From Marinifilum sp. D714 (GTDB taxonomy: Bacteria > Bacteroidota > Bacteroidia > Bacteroidales > Marinifilaceae): a stretch of DNA of 64,000 nt. The translations under genes and the position numbers were made by a program. The stretch spans positions 1-64,000 of the forward strand of contig NZ_JALPNU010000006.1 of the NCBI RefSeq assembly GCF_030851345.1, written 5' to 3'. This document shows positions 41,549 to 56,761 of the stretch, one piece after another; positions within the stretch are counted from its first letter, which is position 1, and the number at the start of each line of letters is the position of its first letter. The notes beneath the pieces were generated by a model. The model was given only the letters and a program-made list of their open reading frames with translations, was not told where the DNA came from and did not search any database.

Positions 41549-43696
41549 ATGCAATTTCCCCTTAAACTTGTATTATTAATTTTCTGTCTATTCCCCTATA
41601 CCATTTTTGCACAAGAGAAAATCGATCAACTAAAAAAACAGTTGAAATTAGAACCGGATAGTAGCAAAACTATATTATTAATTAATATTTCCGGAAAATA
41701 TGCTGCAACTAACCTTGACAGTGCTTTTCTCTATGCCAACAAAGCATACAATTTTGCCAAAACCAATCAGGAAAAATCAGATTTAGTTAAAGCGGGTTTA
41801 AATTTGGCTAACAGATATTCTCAACTTGGGCAATCTAAAAAATCATATAAATATCTTTTGGAAGCAAAAGATTTAGCTCATTCTATAAAAGATACGGCAC
41901 TATTAGCAAGGGTGTATCAATATTTCGGCTACCACTTTTCTGACAAAAGCGAATATGATCAGGCTATTGAAAAATTTAATAAAGCAATTGAATTCTGTAA
42001 AATATCAAAAAAAAATAGGATACATGCTAGTATTTTGAATGGATTGGGAATCATTTACTGGGAACGTGGCAATTCAGAAGTAGCCTTAAAAAAATACTTG
42101 GAAGCATATGATATTTTTGAGGAACTAAAAGATACTAATTTACAATTGGTATTGCTGCTCAATATAGCCAATATATATGCCGATGAAAGTAGAAATGATG
42201 TAGCACTTGAATACTACCAGAAAATTCTTGATTTGGCAATCAAAGACAAAAATCTAGATTCTCAAGCTGTAGTATATAATAATATTGCAATCTTACACCA
42301 AGAAAATAAAGATTATGGAAAAGCTTTAGAGTTCTTTAAAAAAACGCTAAACATCTATAATCAAATTGGTAACGAAGCCGGAGAAGCTCTAGCTATGAAT
42401 AATATTGGCGAAAACTATTTCAAGACTGGGAATATCCGAGAAGCTATATTTTATATCGATAATTCTCTTGCCATAAACAGAAAATTAAAGTTAGAAACTG
42501 AAATTGTTTATAACCTGGAATCTCTATCGAAAGTATATTTATTTACAGGAAAACTACAAAAGGCCTATGATATTATAAATGAAGGCCTGCAATTATGCAA
42601 GAAACTTAAGATAAAAACGATGGAACGTAGTTTCTTGCAACTTAAATCGGAATACTACTATTCGACAGGAAATTATAAAAAAGCTTACAAAACTCACGAA
42701 AGATTTAACAAACTCAAAGACAGCTTAATAGAAGCTAGTAAATCTGATAAAATTGCACATCTGCAAATGCAATTTGAAACAGAAAAAAAAGAAAAAGAAA
42801 ATGAGATATTAAGGGTAAAGAATGAATTAACACAAGAAAACCTAGAGAAAGAAAAGGCATTCACCAATTTCCTAATTGTGTTTTTTGTTATCACCATGTC
42901 TTTATTAATACTGGTTTACTTTTTATATAAATCGAAAACAAAAGTCAACCAAAGAATCAATAAGATTAATGGCATGTTGGAGGAATCAAATCAAAAACTA
43001 AAAGTAACAAATGCTACAAAGGATAGGTTCTTCTCCATTATTGCTCATGATTTACGTTCTCCATTCAACTCAATTCTAGGATTTTCAGAGTTGATCAAAA
43101 GCGAATTAAAGGAAGGCAAAAATCTAAATTTGATTGAAGAATACAATGCAAATATTAATGAATCTTCACACAGCTTGTTTACATTGCTTGAAAACTTATT
43201 ACAGTGGGCAAAGAGCCAACGCGGTGAACTGGAATTTAATCCGGTGCAATTTGATCTTCACCACTTGGTTCAATCAAATCTCATTATTTTCAAGCTGAAA
43301 GCTGCTGATAAAGCAATAAAACTAAGTTCTGACATCGCTCCTCATACAGAAGCTTATGGCGACATTAACATGGTGAGTACAATTCTTAGAAACCTAATTA
43401 GTAATGCTCTAAAATTCACTGAACCCAATGGAGATATAAATATCTCTGCGGAGATACAAGATGAATTTGTATTCTTAAAAGTTAAAGATTCAGGGATTGG
43501 TATTAGTAAAGAAAACCAAGAGAAACTATTTAAACTAGACTGTAATTATACAACAGTTGGTACAGCTGATGAAACTGGTAGTGGTCTGGGATTAATTCTT
43601 TGTAAAGAATTCGCAGAACGAAATGGTGGTGATATTTGGGTAGAAAGCGAAGAAAATAAAGGAAGTGAATTTATACTGAGTTTAAAAATAGCTTAA
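41549..43696 (+). CDS. TPR-containing membrane sensor histidine kinase
   Basis: A 715-residue protein: signal peptide (ending IFAQ), a periplasmic run of TPR repeats (about 30-395) with typical segments such as GNIREAIFYIDNSLAINRKL, a coiled coil rich in Glu/Lys, and one transmembrane helix (about 437-460). A cytoplasmic kinase core follows, with HisKA motif IIAHDLRSPFNSILGF (phospho-acceptor His500) and an HATPase domain with NLISNALKFT, KDSGIGI and GSGLGL. The TPR part probably senses a protein or peptide outside the cytosol. No response regulator is adjacent, so the partner must be elsewhere. Single gene. Confidence 0.93.
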   Translation: MQFPLKLVLLIFCLFPYTIFAQEKIDQLKKQLKLEPDSSKTILLINISGKYAATNLDSAFLYANKAYNFAKTNQEKSDLVKAGLNLANRYSQLGQSKKSYKYLLEAKDLAHSIKDTALLARVYQYFGYHFSDKSEYDQAIEKFNKAIEFCKISKKNRIHASILNGLGIIYWERGNSEVALKKYLEAYDIFEELKDTNLQLVLLLNIANIYADESRNDVALEYYQKILDLAIKDKNLDSQAVVYNNIAILHQENKDYGKALEFFKKTLNIYNQIGNEAGEALAMNNIGENYFKTGNIREAIFYIDNSLAINRKLKLETEIVYNLESLSKVYLFTGKLQKAYDIINEGLQLCKKLKIKTMERSFLQLKSEYYYSTGNYKKAYKTHERFNKLKDSLIEASKSDKIAHLQMQFETEKKEKENEILRVKNELTQENLEKEKAFTNFLIVFFVITMSLLILVYFLYKSKTKVNQRINKINGMLEESNQKLKVTNATKDRFFSIIAHDLRSPFNSILGFSELIKSELKEGKNLNLIEEYNANINESSHSLFTLLENLLQWAKSQRGELEFNPVQFDLHHLVQSNLIIFKLKAADKAIKLSSDIAPHTEAYGDINMVSTILRNLISNALKFTEPNGDINISAEIQDEFVFLKVKDSGIGISKENQEKLFKLDCNYTTVGTADETGSGLGLILCKEFAERNGGDIWVESEENKGSEFILSLKIA

Positions 43697-54444: not shown

Positions 54445-55758
54445 TTACTCATTCTTTAGTACTCTCATAATGGCTTGGGCTTTTAGTAAACACTCTTCAT
54501 ATTCTTTCTCAGCCTCTGCCTGCATGGTAATGGCCCCGCCAACCATAAACGAAAGATAATGATTTCTTGCATTATAAAGTATGCTACGAATTACGACATT
54601 AAAATCAAAATCTCCATCAGGTGTAATGTATCCTACAGCCCCAGAAAACAATCCTCTTTTGGTTGTTTCGTACTTTTCAATCAGTTTCATGGCACGAACC
54701 TTTGGAGCGCCGGTCATCGATCCCATTGGAAAACATTGGCGAATGGCTTCAATAAAGTGCACCCCATCTTTAAGCTCCGAAACAACAGTCGAAATCATTT
54801 GGTGCACCTGAGGAAAAGAATAAATTCCACACAATTCTTCTACGATTACCGATCCTTTTTCTGCTGTTCTCGATAAGTCGTTTCTTACCAAATCTACAAT
54901 CATGATATTCTCAGCTCTCTCCTTCGGATCATTAAATAAAGTCTCCTTTATTTGCTTGTCTTCAACTTCGCTTGCTCCTCGCTTGGCGGTTCCTTTTATG
55001 GGTTGAGAAATAATTTGCTTTCCAACTTTCTTGATAAATCGCTCGGGACTGGCCGACAACAAATACTGCTCTCCCATTTGATAAAAGCCCGAATACGGTG
55101 TAGGCGAAACTTCGGTTAGTTTCTGATAGGTGCCGCGGGGTTTAATGTAGCAATCTTCGGCATAAAATTCCTGACAGAAATTCACCTCGTAAATATCTCC
55201 TCTTCGAATATGATCTTTCAGTTGATTAACAGCCTCCAAATACTCATCTCGAGAGATTCTTGAATGAACCTGATCCACAGAAATGGATTTTTCATTAGGC
55301 AATTCCATATCTTGAAGATTTTGAACCAAAGAATGTACCTCATCTTCCGTAAATTCCTCATTGTAATAATGTACAATTAGCGTATCTACATCCAAAAGGA
55401 AGACCCAACGTGGTCGGAAAAAATTCATTTCTGGAAAACCCAATCCATCATGATTTTCGGACTTTAGCACTTCAATCTCATTCTTTAAATCATAGCCCAT
55501 ATAGCCAAACCACCAATCATTCGATTTTTCTATGGTCTCTTTCAAATGATGAAAACAATCCTGTTTTGGTTCGATAATCTGAAGTGCATCAACACCGGCA
55601 ACCAATTCGTAGGTATTGTATTCGGCCTTCGAATTTACTTTCTGATTCACCTCATGACTATCAAGTATACTAACATACTCGAACTTCTTGCTCCAAAATA
55701 GAAGTTGCTCCTTAAATCTGTTCGGGTTAGTGATATGAAATGTAAGCTGTTTTCGCAT
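54445..55758 (-). CDS. pabB: Aminodeoxychorismate synthase component I
   Basis: A 437-residue chorismate-binding enzyme. Signatures: RRGDIYEVNFCQEF (about 185), PERFI, PIKGTAKRG, MIVDLVRNDLSR and GSMTGAPKVRAM, typical of the PabB/TrpE/MenF superfamily. PabB is preferred over TrpE because there is no trp operon around it and because such stand-alone genes in this phylum are usually annotated as component I of p-aminobenzoate synthesis; TrpE cannot be fully excluded. It precedes tilS on the minus strand. Its upstream region holds the unusual 21-bp periodic array. Confidence 0.88.
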   Translation of the reverse strand: MRKQLTFHITNPNRFKEQLLFWSKKFEYVSILDSHEVNQKVNSKAEYNTYELVAGVDALQIIEPKQDCFHHLKETIEKSNDWWFGYMGYDLKNEIEVLKSENHDGLGFPEMNFFRPRWVFLLDVDTLIVHYYNEEFTEDEVHSLVQNLQDMELPNEKSISVDQVHSRISRDEYLEAVNQLKDHIRRGDIYEVNFCQEFYAEDCYIKPRGTYQKLTEVSPTPYSGFYQMGEQYLLSASPERFIKKVGKQIISQPIKGTAKRGASEVEDKQIKETLFNDPKERAENIMIVDLVRNDLSRTAEKGSVIVEELCGIYSFPQVHQMISTVVSELKDGVHFIEAIRQCFPMGSMTGAPKVRAMKLIEKYETTKRGLFSGAVGYITPDGDFDFNVVIRSILYNARNHYLSFMVGGAITMQAEAEKEYEECLLKAQAIMRVLKNE

Positions 55759-56317
55759 GCCGCAAATTTAAACAAAAGATGCTTTGATTTGCTTTCTGAA
55801 GGTAATAACCTGATGTGAAATCAGGATTAAATGTATGATGAGATTATATTAACATTCGAATTGCATACAAATGATCTTTCTCATGGGTGTGAATTAAATC
55901 ATTCCCAGGTATTGGTTGATATGTTTGTACGTTTAGCTAATCCAAATGCACAAAAATCTGTTCCTGACCTAGGTTTAGCTCATATTTTCCTAGAAAAACT
56001 TGTTCTAAACACATATTTCCCTGTCATAAACATACGTCAGTGTCTACTTTTTGCACAAAAAATAGACTCAAAACATGTTTATATGACATTCACCCTAGGA
56101 AAATATGAAATATTCCTACGATTGGTTCAGATATTTCCACAAAAACCTCATCTAAACATACGTTCGAATAATATTATCCTACGTCAGGATCATTCCAACC
56201 TAGGTTGAAATTATTTATTCCTACGAAAATGTTACATATCCATACGTCAAGACGAAGCATTTGCACGTAGAGTTCATTTCATCATTCGTCTACATTAATA
56301 TTCACGACATGTAATAC
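55759..56317. other. Long intergenic region upstream of pabB, mostly the 21-bp array
   Basis: This 559-bp gap between the DUF6265-like gene and pabB (both minus strand) is occupied from about 55863 to 56303 by the periodic repeat described separately. No convincing gene is present: every frame I followed across the whole array is broken by stop codons. Confidence 0.7.
55863..56303. repeat. Degenerate repeat array with an exact 21-bp period
   Basis: A six-base core of the form (C/T)N(C/T)A(C/G)G, usually CCTAGG, CCTACG, CATACG or TGCACG, starts at 55926, 55968, 56031, 56094, 56115, 56157, 56178, 56199, 56220, 56241 and 56262. All spacings are multiples of 21. Phase positions in between hold weaker versions (TGCACA, CCTAGA, TCCACA). 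From 55926 to 56303 there are 18 units; three weaker ones may precede. The other 15 bases of a unit vary and are AT-rich. Bases that would be third codon positions are conserved and stop codons interrupt the frames, so spaced DNA sites are more likely than a coding repeat. 21 bp equals two turns of the helix. Confidence 0.8.
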
Positions 56318-56761
56318 TCAATCAGATAAACGATTCATCACAAATGAAAAACTTTGCTCATTGTCTCCGAAAACATTCACCATTATTCGTGTTCCATCTA
56401 TTTTCTGATATTGTATTTTCTTGGGAAAATCGTGCTCTAGATTTTCAAATGAATAATAGCCAGAAATAGACTCATTTAAAGGAAAAGAAATTGTAGCTCC
56501 CTGGTTTTGATTGAATACAGTTGCCTGATAAACCAGTTTTCCTTCAATTTCTTTAATAGCCAAATGTTCCAAAACCTTCTGCTTTCCATCAATCAACTGG
56601 TATCCTATTCCAATCAATTCATTACCCTTTACCTCCCACTTTTCGAACTGTTGCTTTCCTTCAACCTGCCAAGTTCCTTCCAAAAAGTGTAGGGATTGAA
56701 TATCCTGAGTAGAACAGGAGTAGACACAAATCGAGAAAAGAATTAAAATCAGATACTTCAT
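56318..56761 (-). CDS. DUF6265-like lipoprotein
   Basis: A 147-residue lipoprotein from the ATG at 56761 (a longer frame from 56821 would add 20 residues in front of the signal peptide and run into the preceding terminator). Lipobox VYSC gives Cys16. The mature part begins FLEGTWQVEG and continues EKWEVKGNELIGIGYQLIDGK, then DFPKKIQYQKIDG, a small beta-barrel pattern matching the DUF6265-type domain. Function unknown. It sits between the YhdH-type gene and the repeat array, apparently as a single gene. Confidence 0.75.
   Translation of the reverse strand: MKYLILILFSICVYSCSTQDIQSLHFLEGTWQVEGKQQFEKWEVKGNELIGIGYQLIDGKQKVLEHLAIKEIEGKLVYQATVFNQNQGATISFPLNESISGYYSFENLEHDFPKKIQYQKIDGTRIMVNVFGDNEQSFSFVMNRLSD

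Follow-up and report, generated by a model that had tools for sequence, protein, structure and literature searches.

Between a pabB-like gene and a DUF6265 gene of Marinifilum sp. D714, we found an array of 21-bp units in which the letters drift between species and the spacing stays. The array lies in a stretch of 64,000 nucleotides, the whole of which is referred to as the window, behind the DUF6265 gene and before the pabB-like gene, and both neighbours are co-directional on the minus strand (Table 1). It has an exact period, a dyad-symmetric unit, tracts phased with the helix, high predicted curvature, a family of sister arrays, counterparts in the same intergenic slot of relatives and very few indels. 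We read it, with a confidence just short of even, as an intergenic non-coding element of DNA shape, in which the helical register is kept while the sequence is not.

Table 1. Features of the array locus (positions in the window)
Feature	Position	Strand	Remarks
Array proper	55926..56303	.	18 units of 21 bp, exactly in register; consensus with dyad symmetry, core CCTACG/CCTAGG, T-N-A half a unit off
Weak first units	55863..55925	.	partly out of register; by eye
Predicted-curvature peak	55923..56072	.	222 degrees per 150 bp; wedge model, approximate values
Chance ORF, 125 aa, spanning the array	55831..56208	+	without a Pfam match; broken by stops in Marinifilum sp. D737 (by eye)
pabB-like gene (chorismate-binding enzyme)	54445..55758	-	Pfam; start 105-167 bp from array
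DUF6265 gene	56318..56761	-	Pfam; end 15 bp from array

A sequence-only reading of this region had proposed an array of about 18-21 degenerate units with an exact 21-bp period, and the period proved real. Over positions 55863-56303, the autocorrelation gave identities of 0.381, 0.424 and 0.426 at lags of 21, 42 and 63, respectively, against ~0.28 in dinucleotide-preserving shuffles, none of which (0/2000) reached the observed value at any of the three lags. Column information in the same interval stood at z 17.1 for period 21 and z 11.6 for period 42, and at most at 4.04 for other periods from 5 to 44. No other place in the 64-kb window is as strongly periodic as the array (378-bp windows, periods 10-40; z 7.7); elsewhere in the window, positions 41770-43470 show a weaker periodicity of the helical type (periods 10, 20 and 40; z 4-6) across more than 1 kb. 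As for the extent proposed, eighteen units are exact, but the rows in front of them are weak and partly off register. The proposed core Y-N-Y-A-S-G is well supported across the units, with A in 16 of 18 at column 4, C or G in 17 at column 5 and G in 12 at column 6. Two further columns had escaped the earlier reading, namely column 13, where 15 of 18 units have T, and column 15, where 13 of 18 have A; both are near the second dyad described below. The array is absent from the output of Tandem Repeats Finder at score 30, which indicates that its units are too dissimilar for a simple minisatellite, as had been supposed.

Around each of two axes, spaced 10.5 bp apart, the column profile of the unit is similar to its reverse complement; one axis lies in the CCTACG core, between T and A, and the other in the T-N-A half a unit away. 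The dyad score was 0.80 in the window's genome (hereafter G000; 0/5000 column permutations) and 0.76 in Marinifilum sp. D737 (0.0002). The same test detected dyad symmetry in the sister arrays L046 (0.78), L044 (0.91), L054 (0.93), L080 (0.86) and L074 (0.77), and none in L055, L067, L070, L082 and L091. A second statistic, based on a sliding region, agrees for the window array, L046, L054, L080 and L074. For L044, the score of 0.91 with a fixed register stands against z 0.0 in the sliding region, probably because the register of this array shifts midway.

The corresponding slot of Marinifilum sp. D737 carries the array in register; over 397 aligned bases there are 84 substitutions, and the 18 units show no net length change. 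Substitutions are spread evenly over the 21 phases (22/108 in the core columns and 57/268 in the others), which disfavours constraint on some sites with free sites between them. The earlier claim that a short site is kept while the 15 bases between are free thus holds only as a column average within one genome. The substitution rate of the array, 0.21, is close to that at four-fold sites of four neighbouring genes (88/336 = 0.26) and twice that of other intergenic DNA (0.100). At sites differing between the two genomes, agreement with the other units was 0.315 ± 0.018 against a neutral expectation of 0.321, albeit this test by itself would be compatible with constraint on some sites among free ones. 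Nine further comparisons of this kind, one of them being the central part of the window array, gave values from -0.38 to +0.17, where 1 means kept. The letters of the array drift as expected without selection.

Such figures would equally suit a functionless tandem repeat, derived from an old 21-bp unit and now decaying, in which the curvature is incidental to the ancestral unit and the core only looks conserved because that unit is still visible. We consider this the main alternative and a distinct possibility, and the even substitutions, the neutral agreement and the rate near that of four-fold sites are all in its favour. What it leaves unexplained is a roughly ten-fold shortage of indels. 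The window array differs from its counterpart in D737 by 2 indels per 84 substitutions, of +2 and -2, eight bases apart and cancelling each other. Seven further comparisons in four arrays gave 0/58, 0/28, 0/38, 0/74, 1/32, 1/45 and 0/29, and the total of 4 indels per 388 substitutions, over eight partly overlapping comparisons in five arrays, compares with an expectation of 41 (p 1.8e-13). Ordinary intergenic DNA hence has about ten times as many indels per substitution as the arrays; the rest of the intergenic DNA of the window shows 57 gap events per 537 substitutions against D737 and 70 per 558 against a further Marinifilum genome (G001), and this background comes from those two genome pairs only, whereas the array comparisons also draw on M. 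fragile JCM 15579 and the MAG McD1.5. Coding DNA of the window has 42 gap events per 4637 substitutions against D737 and 44 per 4800 against G001.

Because the arrays were detected in G000, unbroken register is favoured on that branch, and we therefore repeated the count with half the branch, which lowers the expectation to 20.6 (p 1.1e-5). The shortage persists with one comparison per array (4/293, p 1.4e-9; half branch 0.0006) and with the window array excluded (2/209, p 6e-8; half branch 0.001), and for the window array alone p is 0.007; all of these values concern arrays for which orthologs were fetched, a non-random set. Against it counts that the L044 array has lost ~215 bp in D737; D737 was left out of the covariation count for L044 given below.

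The sequence-only reading had placed the cores on one face of the helix, at two turns per unit, and the runs of A and T bear out this phasing. AAA/TTT runs have their best period at 10.50 bp, with a power of 22.9 in the window array, 22.7 in its D737 counterpart, 27.1 in L046 and 33.6 in L044; no such phasing was seen in, for example, L055, L067 and L075. Among 28,527 windows across the 864 kb of G000 that were scanned (overlaps merged), the window array ranks third, and the two places above it, L044 and L046, are arrays too. In 400 kb of other Bacteroidota, tract phasing reaches 7.8, compared with 10.6 here. With A- and T-tracts on one helix face and pyrimidine-purine cores on the other, the DNA would be intrinsically curved.

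Curvature was predicted by a wedge model with approximate wedge values. With the full model, the peak of the window array (Table 1) is the highest of the 864 kb, and with AA/TT wedges alone it lies at the 99.98 percentile. This and the spacing kept while the letters drift speak for the structural DNA element that had been suggested as one possibility. Eleven of the 19 scored arrays peak above the 99th percentile in both wedge models, the percentile being somewhat inflated because it is taken as the maximum over the array length. Seven of the 19 (L055, L070, L072, L075, L076, L082 and L085) peak below the 97th and L067 lies at 98.2, and therefore curvature is not common to the whole array family. 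Peaks above 150 degrees number 52 in all, of which 27 fall within coding sequence as called; the window array is itself counted among the 27 because of the chance ORF. The predicted curvature of the slot is 205 in Marinifilum sp. D737 and 190 in Labilibaculum OB13, both at the 99.99 percentile of G000.

Whether this curvature exceeds what decay would leave depends on the ancestor assumed. In simulated drift from a perfect consensus array, mean curvature fell to 91 ± 26 at 0.5 substitutions per site and to 68 ± 22 at 0.7, two values that bracket the present similarity of the units, whereas today's mean is 147, which was reached by 15/1000 and 1/1000 runs, respectively. With the most curved extant unit as the ancestor, 420/1000 (0.5) and 59/1000 (0.7) neutral runs reached today's curvature. 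As decay from the most curved unit can leave today's value, the predicted excess of curvature over decay is suggestive only: it counts against the decaying repeat with a consensus ancestor and not with the most curved one. When all 84 substitutions were added randomly to one species, mean curvature was 91 ± 18 against a real value of 164 (0/1000), and context-matched addition gave 103 ± 18 (0/300); as a null, however, random addition is unfair, since two lineages decaying from a better ancestor stay equal. The tracts themselves are substituted at 12/87 against 72/310 in the remainder, which is lower but not significant (p 0.07), and no avoidance of the phase extremes was seen for exchanges between A/T and G/C (0.617 vs 0.637).

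The slot between the two genes was followed into relatives. In M. fragile and G001, a different 21-bp unit forms a fresh and almost perfect array there (by eye), which speaks for a functionless repeat, and in the MAG McD1.5 about one unit remains (by eye). Counted over five Marinifilum genomes, two have a different array in the slot that is much less curved (percentiles 96.4 and 97.8), a point against the shape reading. In another Marinifilum, sp. N1E240 (L094), the units resemble those of M. fragile (by eye). Labilibaculum OB13 (L091) has a window-theme array in the same slot, with 36.2 bits against a cyclic profile of the window array. In the 864 kb of G000, scores above 10 with this profile are confined to the window array, L046 (90) and L054 (13.5), and the best score in 400 kb of other Bacteroidota is -5.4. 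Six loci bear the label Labilibaculum; at least four are without a window-theme array, which is present in OB13 alone, and L090, L093, L095, L096 and L097 score between -25 and -33. Between the window array and that of OB13 there is no alignable similarity (identity 0.636; one shuffle gave 0.664), and four-fold sites of pabB differ by 0.635 between the two loci. Recurrence in one slot across two genera is a further point that sits poorly with a decaying functionless repeat.

A second slot, at L074, also differs between genomes: its theme is 42 bp long in G000 and 21 bp long in D737, G001 and M. fragile, and the MAG McD1.5 has no periodic place there. Around other pabB genes, two Bacteroidales MAGs each have a period-35 place ~0.8 kb ahead of the pabB match (L110:4222 and L125:4187). 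At L101:4510-4880, a near-perfect 21-bp array (TTAGCTGTCAGTTGTCATTTC) with a masked or unknown run inside lies between pabB and tilS, and an IS200-type transposase-like ORF, so named from its sequence, is located 0.4 kb behind tilS.

Other arrays occur in the same genome. The 864 kb of G000 contain 36 periodic places, 21 of which we judged to be non-coding arrays, with periods of 21-22 or 41-44. The 15 places left out comprise 14 judged coding, in which one frame stays open for 92-102 of 102 codons (L078 has five, L036 two, and there is one each in L080:6945, L073, L074:246, L082:5160, L077:4719, L076:13644 and L053), and L074:19650, with period 23 and a frame open over 49. L082:2619, L081, L054 and L072 were kept despite long open frames (93-101), as they lie within gaps between called genes. 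One of the coding look-alikes, L036:500-900, is a serine/arginine-rich open frame (by eye) with a 21-bp period. Apart from the exception at period 23, the periods fall mostly near 21 and 42, which a decaying repeat does not account for. The window array belongs to this family, which is abundant in Marinifilum.

Curvature was scored for 19 of the 21 arrays (all except L048 and L084). Gene orientation was scored for 17, as called ORFs hid the window array and L044:800. The gaps bearing these 17 arrays are convergent in 9 cases, tandem in 5 and divergent in 3, and 14 of the arrays lie behind at least one gene. All neighbouring gene pairs, defined with the same simple caller (ORFs ≥90 aa), comprise 71 convergent, 474 tandem and 72 divergent pairs (617). 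The convergent excess, 9/17 against 62 of the other 600 pairs, has a p of 2.5e-5.

Used as a query against its own genome, the window array found only itself at E 0.001. With the window profile, a second array scores 90 bits (L046:15640-15985, i.e., about 55640-55985 of G000:C28); it has a curvature of 213 degrees per 150 bp and co-directional neighbours. Other arrays group by other themes. A 42-bp palindromic theme, CTTTGCATGCTTGCAAAG, occurs at eight loci in four Marinifilum genomes (L074:4565-4860 and L257-L263), some of them orthologs. The TTTTAACGTTAAAA theme occurs at L044:12290-12680 and four more loci (L269-L272); by eye, it has two arms of 21-bp units with a divider of ~50 bp, and the predicted fold of L044 is, for the most part, a single long hairpin. 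Period-44 arrays were seen at L085:5620-5940, L075:9650-9870 and L283:2990, that of L085 being nearly perfect and self-complementary (CCAACCTnnTAAAnTAGGTTGG); neither L085 nor L075 is curved.

Beyond the genus, no non-coding array was found in 400 kb from 14 other Bacteroidota genomes, in which all 14 periodic places are open in one frame for 101 or more of 102 codons, with every period divisible by three. Scans of 100 kb apiece in G001, G012, G030 and G031 gave 1, 1, 3 and 2 periodic places, respectively. Two of these, from G001 and G031, share a period of 41 and are array-like; others are a place of period 15 in G012 and a second one of period 21 in G031. We rejected a transposase-driven, REP-like spread of the arrays, as Y1_Tnp genes are few and mostly not beside arrays (four matches in G000, none of them on the window's contig and one, L283, with an array within 1.5 kb).

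If the array is an element of DNA shape, selection may act on its helical register. An indel would put everything on one side of it out of phase with the other, and a single substitution would alter only ~1/40 of the bend; free letters and rare indels would then fit together, provided that register is what counts. The bend might serve to position a supercoil apex, gyrase or a nucleoid protein at the gene junction. As to origin, a 21-bp unit may have been tandemly amplified, perhaps before the split from Labilibaculum, with substitution drift thereafter. A wider version of this reading, which we offer tentatively and hold to be doubtful as a whole, is that Marinifilum and its relatives possess a genome-wide class of such elements, a curved, dyad-symmetric 'spacing code' in which selection keeps only the register and the letters turn over. 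The elements of this class would sit at gene ends, and the sequence themes of a slot would be exchanged while the period is inherited.

Another reading is that the array is transcribed and folds into long imperfect hairpins, so that the fold of the RNA, or of single-stranded DNA, is what matters. The predicted fold is indeed strong against dinucleotide shuffles (z -4.8 and -5.5 in G000, -4.6 and -4.9 in D737) and still stands out against shuffles within columns (z -2.6 to -4.0). Shuffling whole units leaves a difference of only z -1.1 to -2.4, so that most of the folding follows from the symmetry of the unit. Compensatory changes give no clear support: two-sided changes affect 3 of 95 pairs in the consensus fold of the G000 and D737 arrays (-44.6) and 3 of 121 in the L044 array, with 70/500 shuffles as good for the latter. 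Arrays of the 42-bp theme do have unit-by-unit stems, and between G000 and the MAG McD1.5 three two-sided pair changes were kept at one dyad and one at the other, against 0 in slid controls, which lends slight support from one 42-bp array. Counts of compensatory pairs among the 42-bp arrays were 3/98 and 1/84, and a second 42-bp set gave no clear excess. Neither was there a consistent excess of G.T over A.C, and the four Rfam matches all fell far below gathering scores. We regard this reading as unlikely.

The sequence-only reading had suggested a row of phased binding sites for a protein. The dyad-symmetric consensus would suit a dimer, pairing inside the cores exceeds column shuffles in G000 (z 4.3), and L046 matches the profile of the window array. 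Nevertheless, core pairing is not significant in D737 (z 1.2), most other arrays carry other cores (by eye), and, above all, the core columns are no better conserved between the species than the rest, as counted above. This makes protein sites with a conserved core very improbable. The partition or retron locus also suggested found no backing in a Pfam scan, as no such function was detected among the five neighbouring genes. Finally, heptad-repeat protein sequence or its remnant, for which one could cite the seven codons per 21 bp, the 125-aa open frame and an indel rate per substitution (0.010) as low as that of coding DNA (0.009), is hardly credible and was discarded, given a stop inside the array in G000 and stops in D737 (by eye), substitutions without codon-position bias (27/126, 30/125 and 22/125), sister arrays of period 22, 41 and 44, and no Pfam match.

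Whether DNA shape is under selection apart from sequence in bacteria is an old open question about phased A-tracts. Near-synonymous substitution together with few indels would be a natural experiment on such selection, in a genus with named isolates such as M. fragile. The preference of the arrays for convergent gene ends points to a measurable connection with supercoiling or transcription ends. Among open-licence papers on Marinifilum or Marinifilaceae and on 21-bp, palindromic or intergenic repeats, we found no description of these arrays in titles or the beginnings of abstracts.

Several known systems resemble the array in part. Kinetoplast-type bent DNA has phased tracts over some hundred base pairs; its origin and cell type are different, and in the Marinifilum array A- and T-tracts alternate. 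Minisatellites or VNTRs likewise consist of an intergenic tandem unit of ~20 bp, but the units here are too dissimilar, the length shows no net change between G000 and D737, though the MAG McD1.5 keeps about one unit and L044 has shortened in D737, and the periods lie mostly near two or four helical turns. REP/BIME sequences, in which a single palindrome bearing a GTAG or CGTC tag is present in many copies, share with the arrays their palindromic units, extragenic position and dispersal (PMC3733652). Unlike them, the arrays differ in sequence between loci and keep their units in exact register, and the tyrosine transposase that accompanies such repeats is not found beside the window array. The array also resembles intrinsically curved DNA with phased A-tracts and the clusters of A-tracts in bacterial nucleoids (Tolstorukov et al., as cited in PMC4060949; see also PMC3940949, PMC3431218 and PMC3372288). 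Curvature in intergenic DNA near promoters and terminators has been described by Bolshoy and co-workers (cited in PMC4060949). A/T tracts at the helical repeat, a predicted bend and an intergenic excess that includes terminator regions are common to both, and the window array has the tract spacing of curved DNA as well as extreme curvature, the latter as predicted by the wedge model. What sets the Marinifilum arrays apart is that the tracts are built into a dyad-symmetric tandem unit, which extends over some 400 bp, recurs in many arrays and accumulates few indels.
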